A DNA stretch of 64,000 nt from Neoarius graeffei (Eukaryota > Chordata > Actinopteri > Siluriformes > Ariidae): positions 51,620,797 to 51,684,796 of the forward strand of contig NC_083571.1 in NCBI RefSeq assembly GCF_027579695.1, in the 5' to 3' direction. Positions 1 through 21,154 of the stretch are shown piece by piece. The position numbers and the translations under genes are program-made. The notes beneath the pieces were generated by a model, which was given only the letters and a program-made list of their open reading frames with translations, did no database searches and had not been told where the DNA came from. How positions within the stretch are numbered: position 1 is the first letter of the stretch; every line of letters begins with the position of its first letter.

Positions 1-144
1 CTGAATTACCCATACTCAAAAACCTATTTTTAGACACCAAGATCATTAAAAATGGATTATCCAATCATAATGGAGACAGAAAACACATAGAAGGGCGTAT
101 GTAGTGAAAATTCATTATGTCTGATTATTATAACTATTCTTTAA

Positions 145-1905
145 GTGCGTTTCTTAAGACACGTTATCATGGACACTAATCAATATGAAAAACAAATGAA
201 TGAAATGCTCACGGACCCATACACATATGAAATAATCAAAAAAGACCCGACAGAGGAAAAGAAAAAAAGACTAAAACTATTACTCAAACCGTTAATGGAC
301 AACAACAAAATCGATAAACAAACATACAACCACTTCATCCCCACAGCAGACATCACCCCCCGGATATACGGCACACCAAAAATTCATAAACCTGGAGCAC
401 CACTAAGACCCACAGTAGACAGTATAGGATCAGTTACTTACAACCTTTCCAAGACACTGGCAGACATAATTAAACCACTCCTCGGACTCACGGAATACCA
501 CTGCAAAAACTCAAAACAACTGGCGAAAGAACTAAAGGAAATCAAGATAAAAAAAGGATGAAATCTTTGTATCACATGACGTCATATCCCTCTTTACAAA
601 AACACCGGTCACAAACACTCTCAACATAGTAGAAAACCGGTTAAAAGCAGACAGAACCCTGAAAAAACGTACAAAACTTACAGCACAGGACATAACAAAA
701 CTATTACATTTCATTTCCACGTCCACATATTTCCAATTCAGAGGTACAATCTACAGACAAAAAGAGGGATTTGCAATGGGGGACCCACTATCTGCCACTC
801 TATGCAACTTTTTTGTGGAGGATCTGGAAACCCGAGCCATAGAAACAGCACCGGACGAATGCAAACCTATCTTCTGGAAAAGATACGTTGATGACATTCT
901 TGAAATAACCAAAACAGGCCACACACAACAACTCACGGATCATTTAAACTCCATAGACAAGACAGGCAACATCAAATTCACACATGAAGAGGAAACAGAC
1001 AAGACAATAGCGTTTCTGGACCTAAAAATACACCACCCAGAAGAAGGTAATATCAGAATTACAACATACAGAAAACCTACACATACCGACCAATATCTTA
1101 TCTGGACATCTGAACATCCCATCGCACACAAAATGTCAGTAATCAGAACATTATACGACCGAACACAGAACATCACGGAGGAGAAAGACAGACAGGAAGA
1201 GGAACAACACATCCAACAGGCATTAAAAAACTGCCAATATCCACCGTGGGCAATTCGAAAAGGAAAATTACAGACACAAAAAAAGGAAAAAAACAAACAA
1301 ACAAGAAAAAACACAGAAAAAACAAGCCGGGGCTTTGTCACATTACCATACATAAAAGGAGTTACAGAACGCATCCAACGATCCATGAGGAAATACCACA
1401 TCAGCACCCTGGTCAAACCATACAAGAACCTCCGACAGCTGCTAGTTCACCCCAAAGACAAAATACAACTGGACAATAAATGCAATATCATATATGAAAT
1501 CCCTTGCCGTTCATGCAATAAAGTCTATATTGGTGAAACGGGCAGATGCTTCCACACTTGCAGGAAAGAACACCAATTAGAATGTGAAAAAGAAAAAGAC
1601 TCACAAGATCCGAAAAAGAAAAAGTAAACCAAGAAAACTTAAAATCAGCCATTTCAGACCACTGCAAACGGCAAAATCATATTATGAATTGGGAAGAGGC
1701 CAGAGTCATTCGCGCTGAAGAGAATAGATACCAGCGTTGGATTTTGGAGGCAGTGGAGATACGTAAGCGGGCGCAGAGGACTATGAACCGGAATGAGGGA
1801 GCGTACGCGCTGTCACACACCTGGAGCGCAGTCCTAGGGCAGCGACCTGACAGCAGGAGGCATGGACTACCTGTCAAATTGGGCGGGACGTTCACGCCTC
1901 CATAG
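145..1905 (+). pseudogene. Penelope-like reverse transcriptase / GIY-YIG endonuclease, broken by two frameshifts
   Basis: Three consecutive frames together give a PLE protein. The first (to 561) holds an N-terminal RT block ending in PRIYGTPKIHKPGAPLRP, the second (about 559-1627) holds MGDPLSA and the RT active site YVDD, and the third (about 1630-1905) holds the end of the nuclease. The GIY-YIG part begins with IPCRSCNKVYIGETGR followed by an R and EH motif, and continues as INWEEA-like and RYQRWILEA segments. The first frameshift lies in an A-rich run near 555-560 and the second near 1610-1630, also in A-rich sequence. There is no initiator ATG for the full domain. By family, the product copies RNA into DNA and nicks the target. 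This copy is dead. Confidence 0.85.
149..164 (+). repeat. Left arm of 16-bp inverted repeat flanking the PLE
   Basis: GTTTCTTAAGACACGT is the exact reverse complement of 2015-2030. The similarity extends about ten bases further outward with three mismatches. Confidence 0.85.
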
Positions 1906-2014
1906 AGTACATCAGCTGATAAGGCACGTCACCACTCGACATCTGGTGACTGTTTTGAAGAAGGTGGAAGTGTTCGCCGAAACTGTCAACAAACGAGGTA
2001 ACATCCTAAAAAAT

Positions 2015-2030
2015 ACGTGTCTTAAGAAAC
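2015..2030 (-). repeat. Right arm of 16-bp inverted repeat flanking the PLE
   Basis: ACGTGTCTTAAGAAAC pairs perfectly with 149-164. It lies just inside the right target site duplication. Confidence 0.85.
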
Positions 2031-2056
2031 AAACTTAAATAATACATAGAAGGGCG

Positions 2057-3024: not shown

Positions 3025-3723
3025 ATGAAAAGGTGAAGACGCATTAATCCAAAAGAAGATGCAAAATTTTATGTGAGCAATGGAAGGGACAAAGTGGGAC
3101 TCGATGTAAAATACATTAATGCCTTCAAAGGTCAGTTGAATCCTCTGATTTTTTCATTCATGACAAAACTTTAAATATGTCACCTTACTTTTTGTGAGTT
3201 ATTTGTTGTGTGTGTTAACTAGGTCATGGCATCTTCACTACCACTCCATTTGCAAAAGGTGACTTCCTGTTGGAGTATCAAAGTGAACTAATAAGCAAGC
3301 AGACAAGCGAGAGGAGACGGAGAATATACCATGACTGCCTTAAGGTGTTCATGTTCGAGTTCCAATTTAATGGGACACTGTGGTGGTGTGTTTTACGTTA
3401 TTATTTCATCCAATCAGAATTAAATGTCATGTTGCTCTTGGTTTACTGAAAATGCAAGTGTTGTTGACAGAAGGCTCTTAATTTAGGCTAATTAATACTG
3501 CCCAACTATGTGTTACTTGTGCTTTTGTAGTGTTGATGCAGCCAGTGAGGATGGGTCTCTTGGAAGACTTGTTAATGATGACCATATAAACCCTAATGCC
3601 AAGATGAAGTACTTGAGCGTGGAAGGGAAGCCCCATCTGTGTCTATTTGCTATAAGAGACATAAGTCCAGGGGAGGAGATCACCTATAATTACGGAGACT
3701 CAGACTGGCCATGGAGATGCAAG
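3025..3723 (+). pseudogene. SET-domain (KMT5A-like lysine methyltransferase) exons 1-3 of a SET/tyrosine-recombinase gene
   Basis: Three exons join in phase: 3025-3130, 3223-3385 and 3531-3723, each with AG/GT borders. The product starts MKR and soon reads INPKEDAKFYVSNGRDK, then GHGIF (the AdoMet-binding GxG region), GDFLLEY, GRLVNDDHINPNAK (where canonical SET domains have N-H-S) and GEEITYNYG (usually YDYG). This is the KMT5A/SETD8-like SET fold, which transfers methyl from AdoMet to a lysine. An in-frame TGA at 3034-3036, three codons after the ATG, would follow from C-to-T change in a CGA codon, so this copy is probably inactive unless a later start is used. The Asp for His and Asn for Asp changes may reduce activity or may be normal for this fish family. 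Exon 3 ends in phase 0, matching the exons that follow. Confidence 0.8.
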
Positions 3724-3819
3724 GTGATCAGATGTTTACTTTGTGGAATTGATAGTTCTTGTATTAGATTTATTTGTACTTAATGTCATTGGCCTGATGT
3801 TTGTCAATAAATTCTTCAG

Positions 3820-3897
3820 AATCCAGGAGGAATGTCCACAGAGGGTCAACACGGAGAGGTACCACATACAGCAGAGCTTTCTAGGAGTGCTCAGAAG
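3820..3897 (+). pseudogene. Exon 4 of the SET/recombinase gene (probable)
   Basis: A 78-nt open stretch between a TTCAG acceptor and an AAG|GTATCA donor encodes 26 residues beginning NPGGMSTEGQHGEV. It continues the phase-0 frame from the SET exons. There is no recognised domain. It is a symmetric 0-0 exon like the next four. Support is splice signals and frame only. Confidence 0.45.
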
Positions 3898-4219
3898 GTA
3901 TCAGCAAGTCGGCGGCAAAAAAAAGGCATCTACTGGTGCATCAGCTGGTTGTCTAAAAGGCTTCGATAGAGTAAGTGACATTTTCATACAAGATAAACGC
4001 AGCTGCACTGTCACATGCATGAAACAGAAATGACGTGTTTGGTGGGTTGTAGAACTACATCTACTGGATCTGTTAGTTTAATGTGTATAGTAAGTTGTAT
4101 ATAGTAAGTCAAAATTACAAGCTTATAGTTTTCGTGGTCATTTGACCTGTTGAGTGCCTAAAACAGTGTTTTTTCCCCACATAATATTACACAGGGAACA
4201 ACATGTCTTCAAGATATTT

Positions 4220-4583
4220 CATCTCATCTCATTATCTCTAGCCGCTTTATCCTGTTCTACAGGGTCGCAGGCAAGCTGGAGCCTATCCCAGCTGACTACG
4301 GGCGAAAGGCGGGGTACACCCTGGACAAGTCGCCAGGTCATCACAGGGCTCACATAGACACAGACAACCATTCACACCTACGGTCAATTTAGAGTCACCA
4401 GTTAACCTAACCTGCATGTCTTTGGACTGTGGGGGAAATCGGAGCACCCGGAGGAAACCCACGCGGACACGGGGAGAACATGCAAACTCCACACAGAAAG
4501 GCCCTCGCCGGCCACGGGGCTCGAACCCAGGACCTTCTTGCTGTGAGGCGACAGCGCTAACCACTACACCACCGTGCCGCCCC
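4220..4583 (-). repeat. Full-length tRNA-derived SINE
   Basis: On the - strand the repeat has a tRNA-like head with A box TGGTGTAGTGG and B box GGTTCGAGCCCC, a body, and a tail rich in ATGAGATG. A perfect 12-bp target duplication, TTCAAGATATTT, flanks it (4208-4219 and 4584-4595). It lies in the intron between exons 4 and 5 of the SET gene. Other copies in this window are at about 21.6, 31.4, 51.4, 52.1, 60.7, 61.7 and 62.9 kb. Confidence 0.85.
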
Positions 4584-4622
4584 TTCAAGATATTTATGAT
4601 ATCTTATTTTTCTTTAATGCAG

Positions 4623-4694
4623 GGTCTTGATGAGGAAATGCCTCAGCAAGGTTCTGAGACCACAAATTCCCCATCAAAAGCTGAAGATTTTGAG
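4623..4694 (+). pseudogene. Exon 5 of the SET/recombinase gene
   Basis: A 72-nt exon between TGCAG and GAG|GTATGT, phase 0 at both ends, encoding GLDEEMPQQGSETTNSPSKA and four more residues. It is acidic and serine-rich, likely a disordered linker. A decayed copy of the same exon lies at about 13345-13380. Confidence 0.6.
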
Positions 4695-4735
4695 GTATGT
4701 GTATAATAAGTTATGTTACATCTGATGGTTGGGGA

Positions 4736-7700
4736 TAGGGCTGCACGATATATCGAAAATCTATCGTTATCGCAAAATCAAGGCTTGCAATAGACATATC
4801 GCAAAAAATACTTAAATTTCGATATACGCCATAATTATTACCATAAATATCACCAATTATTGCCATAATAATCTGCGCCATTTGAACATTTTGAATGTCA
4901 ACAACTGGTTCGGGAAAAGACCGCCCCCTCGGAAGTAATTGCAATGCATGGCCTACTGGTTTAATAGAGAGTGAAGTCGTGATGGCTGAAGGTGGTAGCG
5001 AGCCAAGCTTGTGCGAGGAACTGGTGCCAAAACGAAAAGGCACGTCTTTGATTTGGAAGTATTTTGGTTTCAAGAGAGACGACGTGTTGCAAGCACAGGT
5101 ATTTTGCAAAACATGTAATACAATGGTAGTAACCACCAGAGGAAACACTACGAACCTCTATAGTCACCTACAGCACAAACACAAACCATTGTATGAAGAG
5201 GTTCATGCTAGCAATAGTAGCAAACAAGCAGGCGGTACGCCAAGTTTAACACCTAAAATTAAAATAAGTTCAATTGAGCAGAGCTTTGCAGCCGTCACCC
5301 CTTATGAAAAACATTCTAAGCGTCATAAGGAAATAACGGGGGGCATTGCACACTATTTAACAAAGGACATGATCCCTATGAGTGCAGTAAGCGGAGCTGG
5401 TTTTGTGGACATGATTGGGATACTTGACCGAAGGTATCAAATTCCCTCGCGGAACTACTTTTCTCAAGTTGCCATCCCACAAATGTATGACACGTGTCGA
5501 AAATCGGTTATGCTTGAATTAAGTGGAGTTGACTACTTCGCGAGTACCACAGACCTATGGTCAAGTCGTAATACAGAGCCCTACATGAGTTTCACGGTCC
5601 ATTTCCTCACACAAGATTTTGAGCTCAAAACACGGTGCATGGAGACTATGTACTTCCCAGATGCACACACTGGGGAAAATATAGCGCTCGGATTGCGTGA
5701 AGTATTAGCCAGTTGGAATTTACGCGAAGATCAACAAGTGTGTATAACCACCGATAACGGAGCCAACATAGTGAAGGCCACTGAATTGAACAGCTGGCTT
5801 AGACTTCAGTGTTTCGGCCACAGGCTGCACCTGGCCATCGGTAAGTAACCTAGCTCTAACTGCTTGTTTCTATGCATATACTTTATTGTTTTGTGAAAAG
5901 GGTAGGCCCCTACAAGAAAGAAAGTAACAAACTAATTTTTCAATATTAAGAATTTTTATTGCATTGCACATTGTACAGTTGTATAGCAGCCTATAGTGTA
6001 GTAATTCACATGGAATGCCTCGCTGTTTACAGAGGCTTTGGTCCAGTATCAGTGCATATCCTATTGTAGGCCTACCACAAGAATTAATACCGTTTATTTT
6101 TGTCTCTACAATTTAACATCCCTCCAGCTCGTAGCTCAAATTTTATTCTCTCTGGTTCCAATTCGAGTAGCTGTAACATTACGGAGGCTCCCCCTACTGT
6201 CATTTACTAGTTAGTGTTTAAGCATCGTCTTGTTCAGATCATTGACGATTGTGGAGGCACGGCATATTCTGTTATATCTACGCACTATGCACACATACTA
6301 TGGCTAGTTTCTACCGTTGTTATTTCGATTCTATATTCATTGCAGAATTACCAAATCACACTTAAGGTGTGTTTAGTGTCTATTTTAATAATTAAATTAG
6401 TGATTTTACTTGTAGGGACTAGGGAATGATGTAGGGTTATTTTTTTGGGTTTTTTAAACTGTTAATCATTCATGTTGCCTACGTTTTTTTCTTCTGCCTT
6501 CTCTTTAGAAAACGCAGTAAAAGATGATGGCCGCATTGCTCGAGCAACTGGACTTTGCAAAAAGATAGCGAGTCATTTTTCCCATAGCTGGAAAATGAAA
6601 ATGGCTCTGAAAAAGGCACAGCAGGAGCACAACCTCCCAGAACACTCTCTCATCACAGAATGCCCCACAAGGTGGGGGTCCAGGCAAAAGATGATAGAGA
6701 GAGTCCTTGAGCAGCACCGGGCTTTATCAGACGTCCTCTCAGAAGACAGAAAGTCCAGGCATTTGGTTCCAACCTGGCAGGACCTGGATGTGCTCGAATC
6801 TGTGAATCAGGCATTACAGCCTCTTGAAGAATTCACAGATGCACTCTCAGGTGAAAGTTATGTAAGTGTTTCGTATGTGAAACCAGTTCTTCATCTGCTG
6901 AAGACATCCGTTCTGGCCGAGAAACAAGAAGACTCTGAATTAACAAGATCCATTAAAATAAAAATTTTGAACTACATGATCTGTAAATACGATGACTCTG
7001 CAACCCAGGAACTTCTGGATATGGCATGCTTCATGGATCCAAGATTCAAAGCAAACTATATACACAGCGATAAAGTTTCACACATAAAGACAAGAGTTAT
7101 GGCAGAAATGCAAACAACAACATTGAAGGTGCTTTATATTCTTCATTACACATGCTTATTGCATAATGTTGAAACATGGCATATGACCAATATGTAGTGG
7201 GGGACTTTTTTCACTCTGTATTTTCTGTATTGTAGGAAGGACAGCTGTCTGATACTGGGGCCCAGAATGTGGATCCACCTTGCACCACTTCAAAGAAAGC
7301 AAGAAAATCACTGGGCAGTTTCTTCAAAAAGGCCCCAATCCCCGTTTCACCTTCTGCACAACTGGAACAAGCCATAGAAGCTGAGCTGAACAGCTACTTG
7401 CTGTCTCCTACCATAGACAGTGAGGCAGACCCCCTAGCCTGGTGGAGACTACACATGGTGAACTTCCCACAGCTAAGTAAACTGGCCAGAAAGTATCTCT
7501 GCATACCTGCAAGCAGTTCACCTTCAGAAAGACTGTTTAGCACATCAGGGAATATTGTGACATGCGAACGCACATGCTTAAAGCCAAGCAAGGTGAACAT
7601 GCTTGTTTTCCTTGCCAAAAACCTGCCTTAACGTAAGCGCACACATGCACACACAATTTGTTCTTATAGTATTACAGTTGGTAATCCATGTTGTGGCTGA

Positions 7701-8085
7701 TTTCCCGTTGCACTAGCCGTTTCGGCCAAGAATTCACCATTTATATATTATTTTTATTGATATTTTATGTTGTTTTTTGTTTAATGTAATTTCATGTAAT
7801 GTAATTTCATTTGAATGCTTTAAGCTGTTTTCAGGTTTTTGTTTATTGTTGAACATTCATGGATTTGTGGACATAATTGTAGGTGTAGCCACGTTTTTCC
7901 AAATAAAAATAATAATGGAAACAATGCATTCATTTTTTAATGGCATAGCAGGTACAGTGCAGGATGGTGATTAAAAAATATAATTATTTTTTGTTAAAAA
8001 TTTACATATCGCAAGTCATATCGCAATCGCAGTAATCAGTAATGTTATCGCATATCGCAATTTTTTCCAATATCGTGCAGCCCTA
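4736..8085 (+). mobile_element. hAT DNA transposon, complete and possibly autonomous
   Basis: The 3350-bp element starts TAGGGCTGCACGATAT and ends with its reverse complement, a perfect 16-bp terminal inverted repeat. It is flanked by a perfect 8-bp duplication, GTTGGGGA, at 4728-4735 and 8086-8093, as hAT transposases make. It contains a three-exon BED-type transposase with no stop or frameshift that I can see. It sits in intron 5 of the SET gene. The empty site is preserved in a duplicated copy of that intron at about 9415-9440, which reads straight through GGTTGGGGACCCAGTC. Confidence 0.93.
4895..7631 (+). CDS. hAT transposase, BED zinc finger plus hATC dimerisation domain, three exons
   Basis: Exons 4895-5840, 6509-7128 and 7236-7631 join in phase (1, then 0) through GT/AG introns, giving about 653 residues. 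An ATG at 4982 would give about 624 and may be the true start. The N-terminal BED finger has CKTCN and the HLQHKH pair (near residues 70-90 from the first ATG). Catalytic-core landmarks are TTDLWSS, ITTDNGAN and CPTRWGS. The C-terminus has PASSSPSERLFSTSGN and VFLAKN, typical of hATC dimerisation. The protein cuts and pastes the host element using the TAGGGCTGCACG ends. The closest known group is the ZBED1/Ac-like transposases. I see no inactivating change, which makes it one of the few intact reading frames here. Confidence 0.9.
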
Positions 8086-8255
8086 GTTGGGGACCCAGTC
8101 ACTCGTAGATATAGTAGGTATATCTTCATAAAAGATAGATTCTCCTCAGTATTTTGCATTCTGTATCTTAATAAATTATCTAATGAGGATCAAAGCAAAC
8201 TTTTCCTCTCATAATTTTTGTGAAAAGGTGGATTCTTAGTTTATTCAATTCTTAA

Positions 8256-8853
8256 AGGAAAACTCTGGAGTGAAATGCTTTTTAGGTCCATTTTCGCATT
8301 ATTGGCAGTGCATACGTTGAGTTGCTATCACAACCACGTCAATCGGATGTGTTTTGAGAAAATTCGTTTTTTGTGATTTCAACCGGAAAGCACTAACACG
8401 GCAGTGCCCGGGGCATGTCTTTTTGCCGATACAATTCCCACTGGAAATGCACAATGGGCTCGACACTCGACTTTTACGGACTGTCCACTGAAGATGGCGT
8501 CTGAGGAAGCCCAACTTCAGGTAAGGTCACTGGCTTTGTATTTACTCTTCTACACACACTATCCGTGCACTTGCAGAGCCAGGGACACTTCGTTTTGTTT
8601 GTAGGAACCCTCTGCTCACTTCCACAGAACTGTCATGTTGTTTTGAGCTTTGCAATGGTTTTAAAACTAGCGTTTTGTATCGGCAAAAAGACATGCCCCG
8701 GGCACTGCTGTGTTAGCGCTTTCCGGTTGAAATCACAAAATACGAATTTTCTCAAAACACATCCGATTGACGTGATTGTGGTAGCAACTCAACGTATGCA
8801 CTGCCAATAATGCGAAAATAGACCTAAAAAGCATTTCACTCCGGAGTTTTCCT
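8256..8853. mobile_element. Palindromic fold-back MITE with TTAA target duplication
   Basis: TTAA occurs at 8252-8255 and 8854-8857. The element begins AGGAAAACTC and ends GAGTTTTCCT. Its left arm (8256-8442) and right arm (8677-8853) are near-perfect inverted copies, so the transcript would form a long hairpin. The 234-bp centre is unique. TTAA duplications are made by piggyBac and Kolobok enzymes; the AGGAAA terminus fits Kolobok better, but that is inference. The homologous intron copy near 12775-12790 lacks it and shows the empty site. Confidence 0.8.
8485..8522 (+). other. Exon-like core of the fold-back MITE (start codon plus splice donor)
   Basis: Inside the unique centre of the MITE, a good initiation context (AAGATGGCG) opens a short frame MASEEAQLQ that runs directly into a CAG|GTAAGG donor. 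It resembles a captured 5' first exon. No other exon follows within the MITE, so this could be chance. Confidence 0.3.
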
Positions 8854-8931
8854 TTAAATATACTCTTAAGTGGTACATTGTCAGTACCTGTGTATTTATT
8901 GTCCCTCTCCTCCATGGTTTATCTGCTTCAG

Positions 8932-9045
8932 ATGATGACTGAGGGGAACCAGATTCAGACAGCTGAGGGGAACCAGATTCAGACAGCTGAGAGGAACCAG
9001 ATTCAGACAAGTTCAGTACTTAGTCCACTTGGCAGAGTTGGAAAG
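8932..9045 (+). pseudogene. Exon 6 of the SET/recombinase gene, with octapeptide repeats
   Basis: A 114-nt exon between CTTCAG and AAAG|GTAAAT, phase 0-0. It reads MMTEGNQIQTAEGNQIQTAE and then a third repeat and a short tail. The 24-bp unit (EGNQIQTA) occurs three times. The exon and its flanking introns are duplicated as exon 7. The repeats are probably disordered. Confidence 0.65.
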
Positions 9046-9082
9046 GTAAATTAAATTCAATGTGCAGATTAATGACAATACT

Positions 9083-9134
<52 letters not shown>

Positions 9135-9251
9135 GTTACCTGAGTGTGATATGATTTATATGGACAATGGTATGGAAGGACATCCTCATCACATACTTCT
9201 CAAAGTGTAGGTCACTGCAACATCTGTGTGTGTGTGTGTGTGTGTGTGTGT
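9083..9251. repeat. GT microsatellites
   Basis: Two long (GT)n runs, at about 9083-9131 and 9226-9251, in the intron after exon 6. Confidence 0.9.
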
Positions 9252-10465
9252 ATCAAGCTGTGAACCACCCAAATGTGACTTAGGAGGTCCATACAGTTAA
9301 TTAGGACCTTCCTGGTGGGGTCGATGGTGGCATTACTTTAGTTTTTAAGAATACCTGGACACCCTGCATTTGATCTGTGTTAGTTTAATGTGTATAATAA
9401 GTTATGTTACATCTGATGGTTGGGGACCCAGTCACTAGTACAACCCCGATTCCAAAAAAGTTGGGACAAAGTACAAATTGTAAATAAAAACGAAATGCAA
9501 TACTTTACAAATCTCAAAAACTGATATTGTATTCACAATAGAACATAGACAACATATCAAATGTCGAAAGTGAGACATTTTGAAATGTCATGCCAAATAT
9601 TGGCTCATTTGAAATTTCATGACAGCAACACATCTCAAAAAAAGTTGGGACAGGGGCAATAAGAGGCTGGAAAAGTTAAAGGTACAAAAAAGGAACAGCT
9701 GGAGGACCAAATTGCAACTCATTAGGAACAATTGGCAATAGGTCATTAACATGACTGGGTATAAAAAGAGCATCTTGGAGTGGCAGCAGCTCTCAGAAGT
9801 AAAGATGGGAAGAGGATCACCAATCCCCCTAATTCTGCGCCGACAAATAGTGGAGCAATATCAGAAAGGAGTTTGACAGTGTAAAATTGCAAAGAGTTTG
9901 AACGTCTCATCTACAGTGCATAATATCAAAAGATTCAGAGAATCTGGAAGAATCTCTGTGCGTAAGGGTCAAGGCGGGAAAACCATACTGGGTGCCCGTG
10001 ATCTTCGGGCCCTTAGACGGCACTGCATCACATACAGGCATGCTTCTGTATTGGAAATCACAAAATGGGCTCAGGAATATTTCCAGAGAACATTATCTGT
10101 GAACACAATTCACCATGCCATGCGCCGTTGCCAGCTAAAACTATAGTTCAAAGAAGAAGCCATATCTAAACATGATCCAGAAGCGCGGACGTCTTCTCTG
10201 GGCCAAGGCTCATTTAAAATGGACTGTGGCAAAGTGGAAAACTGTTCTGTGGTCAGACAAATCAAAATTTGAAGTTCTTTATGGAAATCAGGGACGCCGT
10301 GTCATTTGGACTAAAGAGGAGAAGGATGACCCAAGTTGTTATCAGCGCTCAGTTCAGAAGCCTGCATCTCTGATGGTATGGGGTTGCATTAGTGCGTGTG
10401 GCATGGGCAGCTTACACATCTGGAAAGACACTATCAATGCTGAAAGGTATATCCAGGTTCTAGAG

Positions 10466-12051
10466 CAGAGGTCACCAACCCGTCAGTCGCGATCGACTGG
10501 TCGATCTCGGAGGCTTTCCCAGTCGATGTTGGGGGATGAGGAAAGAAATTGGAAGATTATACAGAAATACACTGCAGTATATCTGATTGGCGTTCATATT
10601 ACATGTCTTCCGATAGGCCCACTACAGCTTTCCCCCTCTGTGTCGCAGGGTTCTTTTTTTTTTTAACTCCTGCTGCTTACGTCTTGCGTCTCTGAGCGTC
10701 GTCACCATGGTGATAGCCTCGCAATACAGTTCAGGGTTCTCCACGAGGGGTTTTAGAGGTGCGGGCCGCCCCCCTTTCTGTGATTCCCGCCCCCATTTAA
10801 TTTCTGCCGCCCCTTTACAAAAGGAAGCATGATATTGCCTATAAAACCGTGAGGATATAACCTGGCTGTCAGTGTTACTGTAGCTCTTGAAGTGTTTCCG
10901 CGGAGTGGTGGATCGGACTCGAGCCTGGCATGAACCGCTCCGACGCGCTATAATGACACCAATCTATCACCAGCCAATCAGGAGACTTAATCAAACGCAT
11001 CCCCCGCCCACCAATCTATCACCAGCCAATCAGGAGACTTAATCAAACACATCCCCCGCCCACTCGTGTCCGCGTCTGAGACGTTGAATTTTCACAGAAG
11101 TAGGGGAGAACATGACTGAGGTAAGACTGTGTGATAAATTAACGAACAAGAGAGGAATTTCAACATATAGGGCTCAAGTTTGTTACCGTTAAATAAGCAT
11201 TGCTTGTACAGTAACGTTATGTTGTTACAACGCTGACCCACTTTTAACGTGCCGAGTACCGACTGTAGCCGCTAACATGCTAATTAGCTTGCTGTCAAGT
11301 TTTTCCTTTGTCGAGCTTTAAGCGTAAGGTCATGGATGTTACTGCTGCTTGTTCCTGCCGTAATATGATACGTGATATGAACCTAACTATAAGGCACTCA
11401 CTGACCGTGTTCAGTCACAGCCATCACATTGACTTGAGTTGCGTGATGAACTGTAACCTCTGTAGCATGACAGCAGTCATTGGTAGTAGCATCACTGCAA
11501 GTTCATATTTGTCTTTATTGTGTATGTATGGTTAAAGAAAATCAGTTCATGTTGAATTGAAGTTGTCATTTTGTCACTTAAGTTACAATTTGTGATATAT
11601 CATCACTGTTGTGTTGTAATTTCAGTTGACAATTTCCATTTTATGTTGCTGTGAAATTAATTAATTTAGTGTTACAATACAAACAAGACAGTGCAACTGA
11701 CAGTTCAGCTTTCTCATTACAATATTATTAATTGATTAATAACAATCTGAGTCATTGGTGGTTCATTCATTCTGCTCACTACTGATATAGGCCTATATAT
11801 TTTTTTGTGTATAGTTAATTTCCATTGTATGTTGTACTGAAATTAAGTCATTTAGTCAGCTCTCACAAGAAATTAAAAAGTTGGACCAGGGTCTTAAATC
11901 TTATTCAGTTAAAATTAGGCTAAATAAAAAGCCTCAACTTGAAACAGTCTAGTCTGGATTTCTTTTTCTGTCAACGCTTCAAAGGGTAGATCTTGCTTGC
12001 CATCTAGGCAGAGGTTAGGGATCTCGGGCATAAAAAGGTTGGTGACCACTG
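10466..12051. mobile_element. Non-autonomous hAT nested in the Tc1 transposase
   Basis: The 8-bp duplication TTCTAGAG flanks it (10458-10465 and 12052-12059). The ends are CAGAGGTCACCAACC and its near inverse GGTTGGTGACCACTG, a Charlie-like hAT terminus. No transposase domain remains. It does keep what looks like a 5' control region: two tandem 52-bp units with CCAAT boxes (10958-11061) followed by an ATGACTGAG|GTAAGA start-plus-donor at about 11112. Confidence 0.88.
10958..11061. promoter_or_regulatory. Tandem 52-bp CCAAT-containing units in the nested hAT
   Basis: The unit starting ACCAATCTATCACCAGCCAA occurs twice with a period of 52 bp and one mismatch near the end. Each unit carries two CCAAT motifs and a GC-rich CCCCCGCCC box. 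A short exon-like ATG plus splice donor follows about 50 bp downstream, so this may be the former transposase promoter. The function is inferred. Confidence 0.45.
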
Positions 12052-12854
12052 TTCTAGAGCAACATGTGCTCCCGTCCAGACGACGTCTCTTTCAGGGAAG
12101 ACCTTGCATTTTCCAACATGACAATGCCAAACCACATACTGCATCAATTACAGCATCATGGCTGCGTAGAAGAAGGGTCCGGGTACTGAACTGGCCAGCC
12201 TGCAGTCCAGATCTTTCACCCATAGAAAACATTTGGCGCATCATAAAACGGAAGATACGACAAAGACCTAAGACAGTCGAGCAACTAGAATCCTACATTA
12301 GACAAGAATGGGTTAACATTCCTATCCCTAAACTTGAGCAACTTGTCTCCTCAGTCCCCAGACGTTTACAGACTGTTGTAAAGAGAAAAGGGGATGTCTC
12401 ACAGTGGTAAACATGGCCTTGTCCCAACTTTTTTGAGATGTGTTGTTGTCATGAAATTTAAAATCACCTAATTTTTCTCTTTAAATGATAAATTTTCTCA
12501 GTTTAAACATTTGATATGTCATCTATGTTCTATTCTGAATAAAATATGGAATTTTGAAACTTCCACATCATTGCATTCCGTTTTTATTTACAATTTGTAC
12601 TTTGTCCCAGCTTTTTTTAAATCGGGGCTGTAGATATCGTAAGTATATCTTCATAAAAGATAGATTATCCTTAACATTTTGCATTCTATGTCTTACTAAA
12701 TTGTCTAATGAGGATCAAAGCAAACTTTTCCTCTCCTAATTTTTGTGAAAAGGTGGATTCTTAGTTCATTCAATCCTCAAATATACTCTTAAGTGGTGCA
12801 TTGCCAGTGCCTGTGTATTTATTGTCCCTTTCCTCCATGGTGTATTTGCTTCAA

Positions 12855-12995
12855 ATGATGACTGAGGGGAACCCGATTCAGGCCGCTGAGGGGAACCCGA
12901 TTCAGGCCGCTGAGGGGAACCCGATTCAGGCCGCTGAGGGGAACCCGATTCAGGCCGCTGAGGAGAACAAGATTCGCCTCAGCAGAGATGGAAAG
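12855..12995 (+). pseudogene. Exon 7 of the SET/recombinase gene, expanded octapeptide repeats, acceptor lost
   Basis: A 141-nt, phase 0-0 exon homologous to exon 6, reading MMTEGNPIQAA with four near-identical 24-bp units (EGNPIQAA), then ENKIRLSRDGK and an AAAG|GTAAAT donor. The acceptor that is TTCAG before exon 6 is TTCAA here, so normal splicing into this exon is probably lost. The repeats are more homogeneous than in exon 6, which suggests recent expansion. Confidence 0.6.
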
Positions 12996-13344
12996 GTAAA
13001 TCAAGTTCCAAATCTGGGGGATCAGTGGGTCTAGTTCCAAAGCTAGCTTCAGCTCAATCAGCTGATCTCTGGAGTAAACAATGCGAGCAGCATATCCGAT
13101 GGGAAGTGGAAGTGAAAGTAGACCTTCCAACATGAAAAGTAAATAAAAACTCTCTCTACGACCAACTTTAGAGAGGGCGTGGCTTCAAAAAGTTACTACA
13201 GTACTTTCAGAGGGGAAAAAAGGAAGAAAGTTGTATAAAAGTAAGAAAAAGACGCGAAACAAGCCAGAGCAACTGCAACAGGCTGCATGCATGGTGCCTA
13301 ATGCTGCCTAATGACAATACTTGTGGCAAAATTTGAAGTTCCAG

Positions 13345-13380
13345 AGGTTCTGAGACCACAAATTTCCAAATATTTTGAAG
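13345..13380 (+). pseudogene. Decayed copy of exon 5
   Basis: GGTTCTGAGACCACAAAT matches exon 5, and the segment ends GAAGAG|GTATAT like the exon 5 donor. The following intron start also matches the other intron copies. It shows that the exon 5 to intron unit was duplicated more than once. Confidence 0.5.
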
Positions 13381-13673
13381 AGGTATATCCTCATGAAAGA
13401 TAGATTTTCATCAGTGTAATCTGTATCTTTTTTGAAAGTGACTGCTAGTTAACATCTTATTGTGCCACATTTGAGTCACTGTTTCATACTCGTTCCGTTG
13501 TCTGACAACAGTAACTGAAAAACGACAGATTAAGACATTCTTCATAGAATTTTAAAAGTTTTCTTGCTGCATCTAGAAAAGTTCTTTTCTTGATTTAACA
13601 ACATCTAAAATAAAACAGACAGTAATCACTGTGGTATTTTTTTTAAATTATCTGCTCTTGTTATCTATTTTAG

Positions 13674-13742
13674 ATAACTGAAAATAACCAGAATCAGTTC
13701 ACTAGTCCAAGTGAAATGGATCCAGTTGTCAACAGTGGAAAG
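13674..13742 (+). pseudogene. Exon 8 of the SET/recombinase gene
   Basis: A 69-nt exon between ATTTTAG and GGAAAG|GTAAAT, phase 0-0, encoding ITENNQNQFTSPSEMDPVVN and three more residues. It is a polar, probably disordered linker. Confidence 0.5.
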
Positions 13743-13793
13743 GTAAATTGCTTGTCACGTTGATATTGGATTGAAATGTATTGGCTCTTCTAG

Positions 13794-13991
13794 GACTGTG
13801 TAGATGTCAAAATGTGAATGTGAAATATTCTGCCACTAAAACTGTTTCACAAAAAATTAATGTTGCCATAAAATTTTGCCATCAGTGTCAAAATCATCGC
13901 CTTGTGTGCACAAGAGTATCCTCCTTGGACAAGTGCATTCAGTGCATAGGACCTGTATCCTCCTTCAAGTGGCTTGGCTATAAATGCAAAG
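13794..13991 (+). pseudogene. Exon 9: cysteine-rich, zinc-binding-like
   Basis: Between TTCTAG and AAAG|GTGAGA the open frame carries paired cysteines: LCRCQ, FCHQCQNHRLVC, DKCIQC and LGYKCK. The spacing suggests a small zinc ribbon or treble-clef fold. The frame needs phase 1 at its start while exon 8 ends in phase 0, and the phase-0 reading stops at once, so an indel or a missed exon lies between them. No named family recognised. Confidence 0.45.
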
Positions 13992-14860
13992 GTGAGATAT
14001 TCAGTGAATTTGTAGTGTGCAGCTAAGGGCAGTGGGTGGATATACACTCATTTGGCAGTTCATTAACAAAACCTAGCTAAAACTAATGCAGTCTAATACA
14101 GCAGTCCTGCAGTAAATTCTCTTTCATGAAGGTTAGTGTTTTTGCTGAAACAGTTTTAGAGAGTTTCAACTGTGTGATTATTTTAGAGGACAGCATTTGT
14201 ATTGTGCTGTATTGTGTTATACTGACAGGTGTTTATTACTTTGCCTAATCCATTTACATCAACTAGTGCAGGGCCCGGTCAAAACGTGTCTTTTATCTCA
14301 CTAATAGTTCAGCATTCAATTTGATAACTATCACCATCTAATTTCCATATTTCATGAAATTTCCATTTCCACAAATCCAAAAGGATTGTTGTGTCACATT
14401 GACTTGCCAGTGTATTAGGTACACCTAACTAAAACTAATGAGGTATAACAGAACGGGCCTGTAATAAACCTCCCTTTCTGAGGATCAAAATACAGTTTTT
14501 ATTGGATCTGTTTGACAGAGGTTTCTGTTTATTTTAATGGTTATTTTAGAGGCTCTTGAACTCTACTGGTATACTGGGGTGTGTTCCTAATATTTTGTTA
14601 ACCTTATTTAATATAAATGGGATGGACAAAATCTACCGCTATTAAACAGATTCATTAAAAACTTAACAGTGGGATCTGTGAGGTTGCCATGCTTGAGGTT
14701 TTCCTGAATCTACCTTTGAATTACTCTTATGCAAACATTCATATCAATTATGTATCTCTTTAACAGTGATTTTTTTTTTTTGCTGTTTTGTTTATTCCAA
14801 ATTACTGCCAACTTAAATAGACCAACAGAGTTAAAAATAATATATTCAAATGTGTTACAG

Positions 14861-14931
14861 TTTGTTCAGGCATCTGGCATAAATCCTGCCTCAGACAAAT
14901 TACGAATGAGAACTTCCACCACCTGTCACAG
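14861..14931 (+). pseudogene. Exon 10 of the SET/recombinase gene (tentative)
   Basis: Between GTGTTACAG and CACAG|GTGAGT, the frame reads FVQASGINPASDKLRMRTST and on to CHR. Splice signals are good, but the phases do not match its neighbours, consistent with decay. Confidence 0.35.
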
Positions 14932-15021
14932 GTGAGTATCCACTTAAGGGTTCTTTAATTTCTAAACTGTCTATAAAGTGTCCATCACTAGCTAAAATAA
15001 TTTGTTTTCTCAACATTTCAG

Positions 15022-18000
15022 GAGCAACAGCTTTCTAAGGCTACATCCACACGACAACGGCAACGAGATTTTTTTTTTTTTAATATCGCGTCCACATGGG
15101 CAACAGATCAGTAAAATTTCAGGTACATATGGCAACGCAACACTTGCTGAAAATGATGCAATACACATGCCACACCTCTAGGTGCGCTGTAAGACGGTCC
15201 CGTCGGAGACACCAGAACAATAGAAGAAGGGGTTTACGCATGCGCATAAACCCCTTTTTCTGTAGCATCAGCCACATAAAGTTTTGATTATTAATCAGTA
15301 GCATAAAATAGTATCTATTGTCTAAGACACTTATTTATATTTTATATTAAAACGTCTATGTAAATTAATACATAGAAAGCCTGGCCAGGCGCTGAACGTT
15401 CTTCTGCCTTCACTTTAAGAGAAATTCAGGGCGAGCATGAGCCTAGCTTCTTCCGTGTCACTCACCCTGTCACTGTCACACGCACACACCTTCTGCTCGT
15501 TTTTTGAATGGAGACGCGGAAAGAGGAATGAATGGGGATAGATGGAAGCCGGTATGCCAACATTCTGATATCCTCCAGAATTCTTTAATGGTCCAGAATA
15601 AATTGAATGCTACATGTTGATGGATTACTTTGTTGTTCTACGCCCTTTTTGAGGAATGTATTGTCGGACTTAAACCAACATCTGAAGAGGTGAGATCGCT
15701 CCTTTTTTTTTTTCCTTTTTTTCCTTTTTATTTGTTGACAACTCGCATCAAGTTCATTACACTTCTACCCGGCGTGAAGCACTCACAGTCATGTGGTTGT
15801 GACATCATCGTAAACAAATCCGTTCTACTCATCCAGACGAGTTCGCAACGGCGCCGTTGCCAGATTTTTCCACTCTGGAACCCGTTCTCAAAAGATTTCA
15901 TTTTGGGGCACCCAAAACGCCGGTGCTGTGTGGACACCAGGTCGAAATGATAAACAATTTTATCAGATTCACCTGAATCCGTTGCCATGTGGACAGGGCC
16001 TAAATGTTCTGGGGATGAACCTCTGTCAGATCAGGATAGCGCATCACATTCAGAACTGGATCAAGTATCAGATGATCTTCGGAACGTGTCTGATGAGGAT
16101 TGCATACCAGACTCTGAGTCAGAAAATGAGGACAATGAAGATTCAGATGCAAGCATCCCCTTTCTGCCTCATCAGATGAAAGCTAAACAGATTCACATAA
16201 AACCAGTAATACCAGATGATGGGACATCTTATGGGTCAGATACAAGCATCTCAGTTGTGCACAGCACAACTCTTGAAGATCACATGGTTTTCAGTGCTGC
16301 TGAAACATCAGAATCATCAAATTCTATCAAAAAGTTATCAAAGGAAAAGCCACAGGATTGAGCAGAGCGTAATAACCAAGAATCAGCATATCTGACAAGT
16401 AATAGAAATTACTGTTACATTTGTGGTAAGCCACAAAGTAAGATTTCCCACCACTTGAAAACACACACTACACATGCTGAAATTGTACATGCTTTTACAC
16501 TCCCTGAATGCTCAAAAGAGCGTAAAATATTATTAGAGAAAATGAGGAATAAGGGAAACTTTAAACATAACACTGCAGTTTTACAAGGTGGAACGGGATC
16601 ACTGAAAGTGAAGAGAAGACCAAAGGCTAAAGCAGTGGGAGGAAGGTTTATTCACTGTATACACTGCCAAGGGATGTACCTTCAGAAAGAGCTCTGGAGA
16701 CATGTCCGCAGATGCCCCTGCAAGCCAGAAAATGAAGATTTGACTAAAGAACCTGGGAGAACCAAAGTACTGGGTTTGGCTGCTGCTCTAGAGTCTGCAT
16801 CCTGTCATCAGATCTCAAGTGGAGTGTGGAAGCTCCTCACTGCCATGAAACAGGATGAGGTTGCTTCAGTTGTGCGAAATGACTTTTCTGTTATTCAGTT
16901 TGCCCAGTCACTGTACAACAAACAGGGACAAGACCCTACAAAGTATGAATACATGTGACAGAAGCTCCATGAAGTTGGGCGTTTGTTGCTATGTCTGCGC
17001 ACAGAATTCTCAGTTCATAACGTGGAAGAGGCTGTTAAACCTGCTAACTTCCAGAGAGTTGTGCAAGCAGTGAAGAAAGTTTCAGGTTTTGATGAGGAAA
17101 AACATTCCTACACAACAAAAAGCCTTGCACTGAAATTAGGACATACACTACACAAACTCTGTGACATCATCCATTGTCGGGCCCTCATGGCAGAAGATGA
17201 AGAACTGATCAAGTCCACTGATGTATTCAAGAAATTGTACAGTTCCAAGTGGTCCGAGTTGGTGTCTCACAGTGCCTTGAACACACTGAGCGATGCAAAG
17301 TACAACAAGCCATCAACATTACCCTTCACTGAAGATGTTCAGATTCTTCACCGGTACCTTAAGGAAGCTGCAGAAAGTGCCTTTTGCAACTTGAAGGAGG
17401 AAGCCACTGCTCAGAACTACGCTCAACTTGCAAAAGTTACACTTGCTCAAATCATTGTGTTCAATCGGAGACGTGCTGGGGAAGTTTCAAAAATGCGCCT
17501 CAGAAGTTTTTATGAAAGAGACAACACAAAGCTCCATGAAGATGTTGCCATGGGGTTGTCAAAGACACTGCAACTATTTCAGCCGTGTCAAAATCATGGG
17601 AAAAAGGGGAAGAAAGGTTGCAGTTCTGCTCACCCCAAGCATGGTGGATGCTCTCTCACTACTGACCAGTAAAAGGACTGAGTGTGGTGTTTGTGAGACA
17701 AATGTCTTCCTGTTTGCAAGACCCAAATCAGTGACCAATTACAGAGGACAAGATTGTTTGCGTGTTCATGCAAACCAGTGTGGGGCAAAGCACCCTGAGC
17801 ACCTGAGGTCGACACAACTTCGGAAACATGTGGCCACACTCTCAAGTCCTTAATTTAAAAAATAACGAACTTGACCAGGTTGCAGCTTTCCTGGGTCACG
17901 ACATCCGTGTTCACCGCGATTTCTACAGATTACCAGTTCCCACAACACAGCTGGCCAAGATTTCCAAGCTGCTTTTGTCAGTGGAGAAAGGACATCTTTC

Positions 18001-18041
18001 CAGCCTGCAGGGGAAATCACTGGATGAGATTGAAATTGAAG
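15022..18041 (+). pseudogene. Exon 11: zinc-finger and tyrosine-recombinase core, broken
   Basis: A large exon interrupted by a MITE (15039-16000). It starts acidic, then has finger-like CYICGKPQSKISHHLKTH and CIHCQGMYLQKELWRHVRRC motifs. The C-terminal third aligns with tyrosine recombinases: box I RRRAGEV (about 17466-17483), a basic hairpin KRGRKV followed by LLTP, box II LRKHVAT (17818-17838, Thr where HxxR has its His), LGHD (17888-17902) and the nucleophile in FYRLP (Tyr at 17924-17926), nine residues after the LGH His as in phage integrases. Decay: in-frame TGA at 16359 and 16956, both explicable as CGA-to-TGA, and frameshifts near 17580 and 17840. The frame runs into exon 12 in phase 1. 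The family would break and rejoin DNA through a phosphotyrosine. A Crypton-like or DIRS-like origin is inferred. Confidence 0.75.
15039..16000. mobile_element. MITE with TAA target duplication (PIF/Harbinger-like)
   Basis: TAA at 15036-15038 and 16001-16003 flanks a 962-bp insertion with imperfect terminal inverted repeats (GGCTACATCCACACGACAAC against GGCCCTGTCCACATGGCAAC). A 3-bp TAA target fits PIF/Harbinger. Removing the element and one TAA restores the exon frame: codons for EQQLS, then K-C-S-G. There is no transposase. A near-perfect 32-bp hairpin lies at about 15226-15257. Confidence 0.8.
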
Positions 18042-18572
18042 GTTTGTGCAGAAATTAGCGCTTGCAGATATTTTCTGAGAATATTTATTTGTTTTTTTCT
18101 GAATATTAATTTAGAGGCACATGGATGCTTTAGAACAGTGATCACCAAACTTTTCCAAGCAAACAAAAGGTCCAAATAAAAGCCAAAGTCTACAGCTCAG
18201 AAATACAAACATAAAAGCCTATAATAAGATTGGGCAAAAATTCAACATTATGGTTTAATGGCTCTCAGTTGTATTGTGTTAACAGCATCATACTGTGTAA
18301 TAATTTTACTAATGTTATTGTTATCCAGATTAATATTTCAATTGTAATGACCCAAATTATAGAGCCATCGAAGTCCTGATATTTTTATGATGTTAATCTG
18401 TGTGCACAAATGATTAAATCCTATCTTGTCCACACAACATAATGACAGGTCAATCACAAGTGGACAACATTACGTATACTACATAGATTGGGCTAAAATA
18501 CTATTGCCAATATTAAGTTATGAATTTTTTTGCCAAGCTGTTCATGTGAATTGTACTAATGCCATTTCCTAG

Positions 18573-18727
18573 ACGAAATTCCATTCAGTGACACTGACGC
18601 CAAGGAAGTGAGAGCGAATCCGATGACAGTGGCACAGCATTCACGGCATCAGAGTGTGGGACTAGTGAACCTGTGGATGCTCCCTCACACTCTATCACAG
18701 AGCAAGTCCATGACATGAGTGATTTTG
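18573..18727 (+). pseudogene. Exon 12 of the SET/recombinase gene
   Basis: Joins exon 11 in phase 1 (G|AC): DEIPFSDTDAKE, then a small indel, then SESDDSGTAFTASECG and on to HDMSDF before a TTG|GTAAGT donor. It is acidic and Ser/Thr-rich. The indel near 18605-18612 is further decay. Confidence 0.6.
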
Positions 18728-18812
18728 GTAAGTTACCTCACTTTATAGTTGTGTTTCTGTTGATAATTTTTTGCTCATTAAAAAAACTTTTGTCAAATTA
18801 TGTGTTTGGCAG

Positions 18813-18866
18813 GAACAGTGTCATCTGTTACATCGACAGTAACTGAGACTGTCCCTCTGTCTGAAG
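18813..18866 (+). pseudogene. Exon 13 of the SET/recombinase gene
   Basis: A 54-nt phase 1-1 exon between GGCAG and GAAG|GTAAGG: GTVSSVTSTVTETVPLSE. Ser/Thr-rich linker. Confidence 0.6.
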
Positions 18867-19802
18867 GTAAGGCAAGTTTGATTGTAAAGCACCTTTACAG
18901 AAGACACAAAAAGATAATATTAAAAGCAAAATGCAAATAGAAATTGCAAAAAGGATAAAAGATAAAAATAATGTAAAATGGAATAAATATAGGACTAGAA
19001 AACAATATTGCAGTTTCAGTACAGTGTATGATATATATACAGTATATGGGTGCCCCAATTGTCTTCTACTTAAAACACATATCACAATACAGCCTCCTAA
19101 ACTAAAATTTTAATTTAATTTGAAAAAAAAAAAAGGCAGTAGCAAACCGCACCACATCTGTACAACAAGTGATCCCAATTAATAAAGTAGATGACTGTCA
19201 AACTGTCAAAAAAGATTTTGGCACTTTAGATGTTTAGGTTCTTATCCATCATGCAGTACCATCAGTGAGGTGTCTTGTATGACAGCAGCCCCAAACATAC
19301 AGCCAGATTCATAAAGCATCATCAATCTGGGATTACATGACGAGACACAGTGCAGAGACACAGCTGTGCAACTTCTAGAGGTACCTGAAAACTGTGGGCA
19401 GGTGTACTAAGGAGAACTGATCCTGCTGTAGTGGTGCCAGAGATTGGTTTATAGGTCTTTTTCTGCTTACTGCACCTTGTATAGAATTAAGTGTTGAATT
19501 AAAAACTACATGCTATGCATTGTTTTTGAAAGCATCCTCACTGTACTTTAAGAGCTTTGTACAGTGCTTAATGTACAGTACTTGTATACCTTAAAGTCAG
19601 CTGCAGCTAATATGAAGACTTAGCCAAATCTAGGTGTAAAATCAAATAAAGTGAGTAGTCAACTGAAAATTAAAAAAAAAAAAAAATCACAGAAACAAGT
19701 TAACAGAAATCTGTGGCATTAGTTCAACTAAGGTTGTGATTGCTCCAACTGGCCAACTCATTGTGTTTTGTGTGATATTTTTTCACTTTGTGTATTTACC
19801 AG

Positions 19803-20056
19803 GACAAGACACTGGTCAAGAACATGAGTCCAGAAGATTGCCAAAGAAACCGTGGTCTAAGGCTGAGGTTGCTGCAGTCATGCGGTATTTCAGGGATCAC
19901 ATAAGTAAAGGAAAACTGGCCACAAAAAACGAATGTAGTCATTGTAAGCTGGCAGAAGACCCTGTTTTAGAACAACGAACAGTGCAAAATATAAGGGACT
20001 TTGTCAGAAACCGAGGAATAGCTGCAAAGAGGCAGTCACAGAAACAAAAGCTGTAA
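19803..20056 (+). pseudogene. Exon 14: terminal Myb/SANT-like basic domain
   Basis: Starts in phase 1 after TTTACCAG and runs open to TAA at 20054-20056. It contains KKPWSKAEVAAVMRYFRDHI, a cysteine pair CSHCK, and TVQNIRDFVRNRG followed by a Lys/Arg-rich tail, AAKRQSQKQKL. The W-x-x-x-E start and helical pattern suggest a Myb/SANT-like DNA-binding module; the Cys pair is an addition. This is the last exon of the gene; the exon itself shows no break. An AATAAA at 20743-20748 may end the transcript. Confidence 0.7.
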
Positions 20057-20748: not shown

Positions 20749-21100
20749 ATAACTATTCCAGTAATGCTTTGTGCTGTCAGGTGTATGTATTTATGTTAAT
20801 GATCAGCTATTTAAAAGTGATGTCACTGTCCCTTTAAAGACCCAAAAGTGTTTTGTTTTGTCCTCATAAGTCACACATTTGTCAAAAAGAGAACTGTCGG
20901 CATAAACCACAATACGATTGGGGTGCTGTGTATGAAGTTGTGTAGCTTGTACGTGAATGCTGAAGTGACCAAAATTTTTTTCAGATTTTTTGCAGTGTTT
21001 TAATCCAACTCCCAATTGCTCTAGGACCTCAGGAAAGGGTAGTCCATGTAAACCACCACCGGGCCTGTGCAGAGAAAAAGTCCGTTTAATCCATATAAAC

Positions 21101-21154
<54 letters not shown>

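Follow-up and report, generated by a model that had tools for sequence, protein, structure and literature searches.

SETMAR is a primate host gene in which a SET methyltransferase is joined to a DDE mariner transposase, and chromoviruses are long terminal repeat retrotransposons with integrase-chromodomain fusions. DNA transposons that encode a tyrosine recombinase (YR) and are specific for microsatellites are already known, as some families of CryptonV (Kapitonov and Jurka 2012), by the account of them in PMC8869645, inserted specifically in such repeats. CryptonA, CryptonI and CryptonF are also YR-encoding DNA transposons, with CryptonA found in medaka as well; the portions of the report that concern animal Cryptons describe them as having neither a C-terminal domain nor terminal repeats, and state no microsatellite targeting (Kojima and Jurka 2011, PMC3212892). 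Here, we analyzed a 64,000-nucleotide stretch of the Neoarius graeffei genome (the window; contig NC_083571.1, termed C3, positions 51620797-51684796), which carries KMT5A-like SET exons followed by a zinc-finger and YR exon and by a SANT-like last exon. With a probability of about 0.82, the window holds a dead copy of a YR DNA transposon whose insertion target is (GT)n microsatellites; the copy belongs to a cluster that arose by segmental duplication. On this reading, the lineage is one of YR transposons residing in GT microsatellites, in which a sub-lineage bears SET and some copies have kept SET but lost the YR.

Insertion into microsatellites by a YR DNA transposon is what the fish element has in common with CryptonV. 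The latter comes from cnidarians by the title of its report and is compared here by description only (as given in PMC8869645), a description in which SET is neither shown nor excluded. Like CryptonA, CryptonI and CryptonF as described in PMC3212892, the fish element is a YR DNA transposon with non-autonomous derivatives, but unlike them it has a multi-exon gene that includes a SET domain and, at the C-terminal side, a SANT-like exon. The YRs of endogenous nimaviruses also combine a C2H2 zinc finger with simple-repeat insertion; those elements are, however, large DNA virus genomes residing in crustacean telomere repeats or 28S rDNA, and SET is not mentioned in the sections of PMC10871703 drawn on here. 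KMT5A/SETD8 is a host enzyme without a recombinase, and the fish element has ND for its NH motif. SETMAR likewise unites SET with a transposon recombination enzyme, although in the fish it is the mobile element itself that contains SET, with a YR as the partner. In chromoviruses a chromatin-related domain accompanies the integrase, but it is a reader domain and not a methyltransferase. In protein-family databases, some fish SET proteins are grouped together with Tyr-recombinase proteins. SET with a tyrosine recombinase is an unusual pairing in mobile DNA. Among the papers available to our literature search, none reported a transposon in which a YR is combined with SET, and the pairing is not described in the parts of PMC9945428 or PMC8455134 that were consulted.

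The source genome (2.34 Gb, 38 contigs) was searched separately with the SET, zinc-finger/YR and SANT-like exons, and the same order recurred at several divergent loci. The zinc-finger query gave 59 matches, SET 72 and the SANT-like exon 29, which clustered into 44 zinc-finger/YR, 38 SET and 28 SANT-like exon loci; linkage was counted within 50 kb. SET was found upstream and on the same strand at 21 of the 44 zinc-finger/YR loci, when 0.07 pairs are expected by chance, and 6 of these 21 pairs fall in the duplicated C3 cluster. The SANT-like exon was present downstream at 20 of the 44, and no nearest neighbour was on the opposite strand. One further SET, 47 kb downstream of a zinc-finger/YR locus on the same strand, probably belongs to a neighbour. 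No zinc-finger/YR match was detected within 50 kb of 17 of the 38 SET loci. Five of the 17 (C18, C24, C3:69.3, C7 and C8) are the YR-deleted copies considered below, with the SANT-like exon 8–10 kb downstream, and one, on C6, has a SANT-like exon on the opposite strand at a distance of 2.8 kb. Host kmt5a genes may account for some of the other YR-less SET loci.

The initial annotation had cautioned that two adjacent genes might be present, as the phases around exon 11 (the YR exon) did not match. The mismatch arises because a miniature inverted-repeat transposable element (MITE)-like insertion sits inside this exon (15039-16000, + strand). The insertion is 962 bp long with inverted ends, is flanked by TAA on both sides (15036-15038 and 16001-16003), and is absent from the C2 copy (L008), whose sequence is uninterrupted; we take it to be Harbinger-like from its TAA target. 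The true acceptor (15021/15022) gives a phase 0 entry at 15022, as in linker exons 4 and 5. A linker exon of the VPRLRRTKSI type, with a phase 0 end, stands between SET and YR in L015, L022 and L025. If the element contained a SET gene and a separate, unfused YR transposon gene, the ATG found directly after the YR-exon acceptor in some relatives (L015, L022) would be expected, and so would the existence of SET-less YR loci and of YR-deleted copies that retain SET. In L025, however, inspection by eye revealed a YR exon without such an ATG, an in-frame stop before the acceptor and a phase 0 join, and the common linker exon and the fitting phases also argue against separate genes. We consider two unfused genes unlikely, and infer from exon order and phase that the exons yield one spliced transcript and protein. 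L015 itself comes near to a frame unbroken from SET to YR: its YR frame is 670 aa long and, by eye, the break lies close to where the exon begins.

The evidence for mobility comes mainly from a sister family with sharp termini. L015 (C11) and L016 (C4) contain SET and YR, and L017–L021 (C8, C18, C3, C24 and C7, respectively) resemble them closely but skip from L015:6070 to 9332 (9373 in L017), thereby losing the YR exon. The 5′ ends are alike, and all seven follow directly after 5–18 perfect GT units (C8 12, C3 12, C11 5, C4 at least 18, C18 5, C24 8 and C7 16); GT runs of at least 5 units make up 0.2–0.7% of the DNA sampled, depending on strand and sample. Terminus searches of the genome allowed up to 3 mismatches, with the reversed pattern as control. 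The 5′ terminus was present at exactly those 7 places and the 3′ terminus at 6, both controls giving 0, so that copies with common borders, as sought by the initial annotation, do occur in this genome. Directly after the 3′ terminus, 5–21 TG units were observed in 5 of the 6 places (C4 6, C3 17, C22 5, C24 21, C7 19, C8 0), although the pattern used finishes in TGTGTG, which biases toward GT flanks.

In the C4 copy, the matched ends are ∼14.8 kb apart and enclose SET together with a broken YR, and the paired ends of the YR-less copies in C3, C7, C8 and C24 are 18–20 kb apart. The C24 and C7 copies match to both ends, with 98% identity along 13 kb and 97% along another 4.8 kb; the sole stretch common to their flanks measures 370 bp and lies 1.5–2.6 kb outside. 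By eye, the sister-family ends look like imperfect inverted repeats, and blast of the ends returned short matches only. Tc1-like and Gypsy-like frames were seen by eye within the C24 copy, the retroelement-like ones appearing nested, and its element positions 6261-9787 consist of a 739-bp tandem repeat (∼4.8 units).

These termini bear on two other explanations. A host gene family derived from a Crypton could have spread by segmental duplication and not by transposition. Seven copies including the window do lie together in C3:50.3-52.3 Mb, and exon 11 stops are common to them (the first in 7/7, the second in 4/7), so that their ancestor must have been broken before the copies arose. The purifying selection seen on SET and YR points the same way, as does an open frame of 1753 aa at C11:24.5 Mb, with three zinc-finger units, that looks domesticated. 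Against this reading stands the sister family, whose 5′ termini are exact and lie in (GT)n at 7 places on the chromosomes, five of which hold a YR-deleted derivative. A host-gene origin is already disfavoured for the sister family, and we judge it improbable. Hence, of the two possibilities raised in the initial annotation, a SET-carrying element or a host gene, the mobile element is retained on the basis of the repeated exon order, the sharp sister termini and the C4 copy.

Alternatively, the border (GT)n might be a tail produced by the element, as 12 of the 13 ends found for the sister family directly abut GT units (7/7 at the 5′ and 5/6 at the 3′ side). At C3:69.3 Mb, however, one compound GT/GA repeat forms both flanks, and therefore the repeat predates the insertion; the C18 5′ flank, moreover, carries its own interruptions. 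A tail is thus very improbable, and we favour a transposon for which (GT)n is the target.

The window family comprises 11 close copies including the window, 94–100% identical, with 7 in C3:50.3-52.3 Mb and the others in C2, C3:15.46 Mb, C14 and C17. The exons lie within 3025-20056, the extent initially proposed, but the element reaches beyond 20056 up to (GT)n at 21103, and its 5′ end is upstream of the window. The 3′ terminal region (20963-21102, + strand) was delimited with the C14 copy, which matches to 21102, abuts (GT)n at the same point and then diverges in its flank. Its terminus pattern, which likewise finishes in GT, was present at 12 places in the genome (control 0). The adjoining (GT)25 microsatellite (21103-21152, + strand) is read, from its sequence and the C14 comparison, as the insertion target. 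The C17 and C3:15.46 stretches cease matching earlier, and their termini appear further downstream. The C2 copy has no SET match within 50 kb; its match to the window starts at the YR-exon splice acceptor (L008:1126), preceded by unmatched in-frame sequence. L008 may be a spliced retrocopy, since the match starts at that acceptor, although the intron following the YR exon is retained.

The identification of the recombinase was then weighed. The catalytic region (17334-17990, approximate edges, + strand) contains, in order, R (FNRRRAGEV), K (GKRGRK), LRKHVAT, LGHD and FYRLP, as delimited by alignment, Pfam and profile comparison. The motifs noted in the initial annotation were partly upheld: K, LxxR, LGH and Y align with XerC, XerD, FimB and FimE, but the first Arg falls outside this alignment and was placed by eye, and the Pfam scores are weak. 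Pfam Phage_integrase gave E 0.096 on one window piece. The best E for PF00589 was 0.0074, with matches in 2 of 8 relatives, when the unrelated family MOM1 reached 0.0042, also in 2 of 8; five long relatives had no integrase match in Pfam at E up to 1. The best evidence for a YR comes from comparing profiles with XerC, XerD, FimB and FimE of E. coli (E 3.7e-4, HH probability 37%), a comparison whose score beats 200 of 200 column shuffles. When lambda Int, P2 Int and Cre were added to the profile set, E was 0.0052 and the probability 7%, and the score again lay above all 200 shuffles. Among 8 members, the first R (by eye) is kept in 7, K in 7, the second R in 8, the His of LGH in 8 and the Tyr in 7. 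The YR profile had no match among solved structures. Relatives outside this genome were sought in a viral contig collection (46 pattern matches, 0 confirmed), in other genome contigs (19 pattern matches, 0 confirmed) and among phage records (none), and PHROGs returned 6 families (best 0.016), none of which is an integrase by its listed name. Precise element ends in a repeated target, with no evident longer duplication, fit a recombinase without proving its class. A LINE (long interspersed nuclear element)-like frame was seen by eye on the opposite strand of L026, a YR-bearing stretch.

Several observations weigh against a SET-bearing YR transposon targeted to GT repeats. The YR homology is weak as judged by the sequence scores and HH probabilities above, and the His of the HxxR tetrad is Thr in 7 of 8 members and Trp in one. 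In the SET domain, RLINHS of KMT5A aligns with RLVNDD, so that the NH motif becomes ND. At C8, the 3′ terminus is not directly followed by a GT unit, and the 3′ ends of the C18 and C11 copies were not found at up to 3 mismatches. A copy with the frame intact from SET through YR was not seen. Finally, 23 of the 44 zinc-finger/YR loci have no upstream SET, and the young C16/C24/C26 YR family shows none in the 10-kb stretches examined; SET is therefore needless for movement.

The SET-less C16/C26 pair has open frames of 747 and 749 aa and an identity of 99.8% along 10 kb, and its 3′ side meets (GT)n in unrelated flanks. The YR region of this family is 44% identical to that of the window family and both families have (GT)n at their 3′ ends, so that GT targeting appears old in the lineage, the GT contact of these two families being read at the 3′ ends only. 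SET appears to be a feature of a sub-lineage, whether gained or lost. When 3′ ends were compared, the SET and SET-less families were found to have a common 15-mer at similar distances from the end, which none of 1000 shuffles equalled, and 5 of 1000 shuffles were as good for the SET and window families; the SET-less and window families gave no significant likeness (378 of 1000). The 5′ side of L009, L010 and L011, in the SET-less family, has tandem repeats of ∼2.4 kb that vary by copy, with a 506-bp spacing in C26. At L012:807-3625 (C8:43.36 Mb), long same-strand frames of another apparent mobile element lie directly upstream of an open YR frame. L027 (C11:24511500-24521499, minus strand), the 1753-aa open frame with three zinc-finger units mentioned above, has altered YR motifs (HKYVAT, VGDD) and looks like a candidate domesticated gene.

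Nonsynonymous divergence (dN) of SET between lineages is ∼0.2–0.4, when synonymous divergence (dS) is saturated in most pairs, and therefore SET was kept as a working protein during element divergence. The dN/dS ratio was 0.16–0.19 for distant lineages with measurable dS, and 0.25 and 0.76 for two close pairs. The dN of YR was 0.14–0.68, with dS saturated or >1. From these alignments, SET and YR both seem to be under purifying selection.

These data are consistent with a cycle in which (i) the zinc fingers and the SANT-like exon would bind the element ends or the GT target; (ii) the YR would cut out the element, probably as a circle, and join it into (GT)n, with no duplication of the target in evidence; (iii) SET would place a methyl mark on a histone or another protein, and this mark might aid insertion, expression or escape from silencing; and (iv) copies without the YR exon but with SET and the SANT-like exon would be mobilised in trans. 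That the recombinase protein has its own methyltransferase, whose mark readies GT microsatellites or shields the element from silencing, is a tentative proposal that we hold to be doubtful. A methyltransferase domain under purifying selection in a mobile element suggests that the element exploits chromatin modification and does not just suffer it. GT repeats are common and interrupting them may seldom harm the host, and GT targeting would then be a testable safe-harbour strategy. The YR-deleted derivatives that retain SET raise the question of whether SET is required at all and, if so, whether in cis or in trans. As a guess, the lineage may explain some multicopy fish KMT5A-like genes, e.g. 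setdm of gibel carp.

The remaining features of the window gene, all on the + strand, largely follow the initial annotation. Exon 1 (3025-3131; from the sequence, 5′ edge as initially placed) is the N-terminal flank of the SET domain, ends in ...YINAFK at phase 1, and has 12–13 aa stretches in common with L022 and L015. Exon 2 (3223-3385; phase 1 in, 2 out; Pfam, genome matches and phases) encodes the first half of the SET domain, and exon 3 (3531-3723; phase 2 in, 0 out; Pfam, solved structures and phases) the second half (LVNDDHINPN...GEEITYNYGD). That the SET exons are KMT5A-like was borne out by PF00856 (E 7.8e-21, 74.9 bits, cut-off 22.4) and by the closest solved structures, KMT5A/SETD8 (E 3.7e-23); the catalytic Tyr motif ITYNYGD is kept. 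Linker exons 4 (3820-3897) and 5 (4623-4694), placed by their splice borders, are symmetric (phase 0-0) as first described, and GT/AG borders were seen for exons 2–5 and 11–14. The Cys-rich exon region (13874-14002, approximate edges), another feature of that annotation, recurs in the divergent copy L026 (L026:612-740, 49% over 43 aa).

Exon 11 (15022-18041; phase 0 in, 1 out; genome matches, relatives and phases) encodes the zinc fingers and the YR and is broken in the window copy, which is dead, with stops at 16359-16361 and 16956-16958 and frameshifts at ∼17570 and ∼17850. Its C2H2-like zinc finger region (16404-16700; YCYICG...H...H and CIHCQG...H...C) has Cys/His columns invariant in 5 relatives. 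Exons 12–14 are joined in phase 1, the phase in which the YR exon leaves. Exon 12 (18573-18727; splice borders of phase 1-1) has a length, 155 bp with coordinates set by eye, that is not divisible by three and is off in the window copy; exon 13 (18813-18866) is phase 1-1 by its splice borders. Exon 14 (19803-20056) is the last and carries the stop codon; it is conserved, as seen in its genome matches and its place downstream of the YR, but Pfam yielded no Myb/SANT match above cut-off, and its name stems from the initial annotation.

An Rfam scan of the window gave no match at the gathering threshold. Between the SET and YR exons, open frames named by eye as hAT-like transposase (∼4895-7631) and Tc1-like transposase (∼9877-12410) were observed, and a frame similar to the latter occurs, by eye, in the C24 element. 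Window positions 96-2036 are an insertion missing from the C14 and C17 copies, with an open reading frame (ORF) that we take to be a Penelope-like element with a GIY-YIG end. Discounting this insertion, a Cys-rich ORF, presumably CXC-like, that lies upstream of the window (L043 and L042 (C17)) ends ∼1.2 kb before the SET exons; a first look returned 1087 candidate relatives in the genome, 150 of which were scored.

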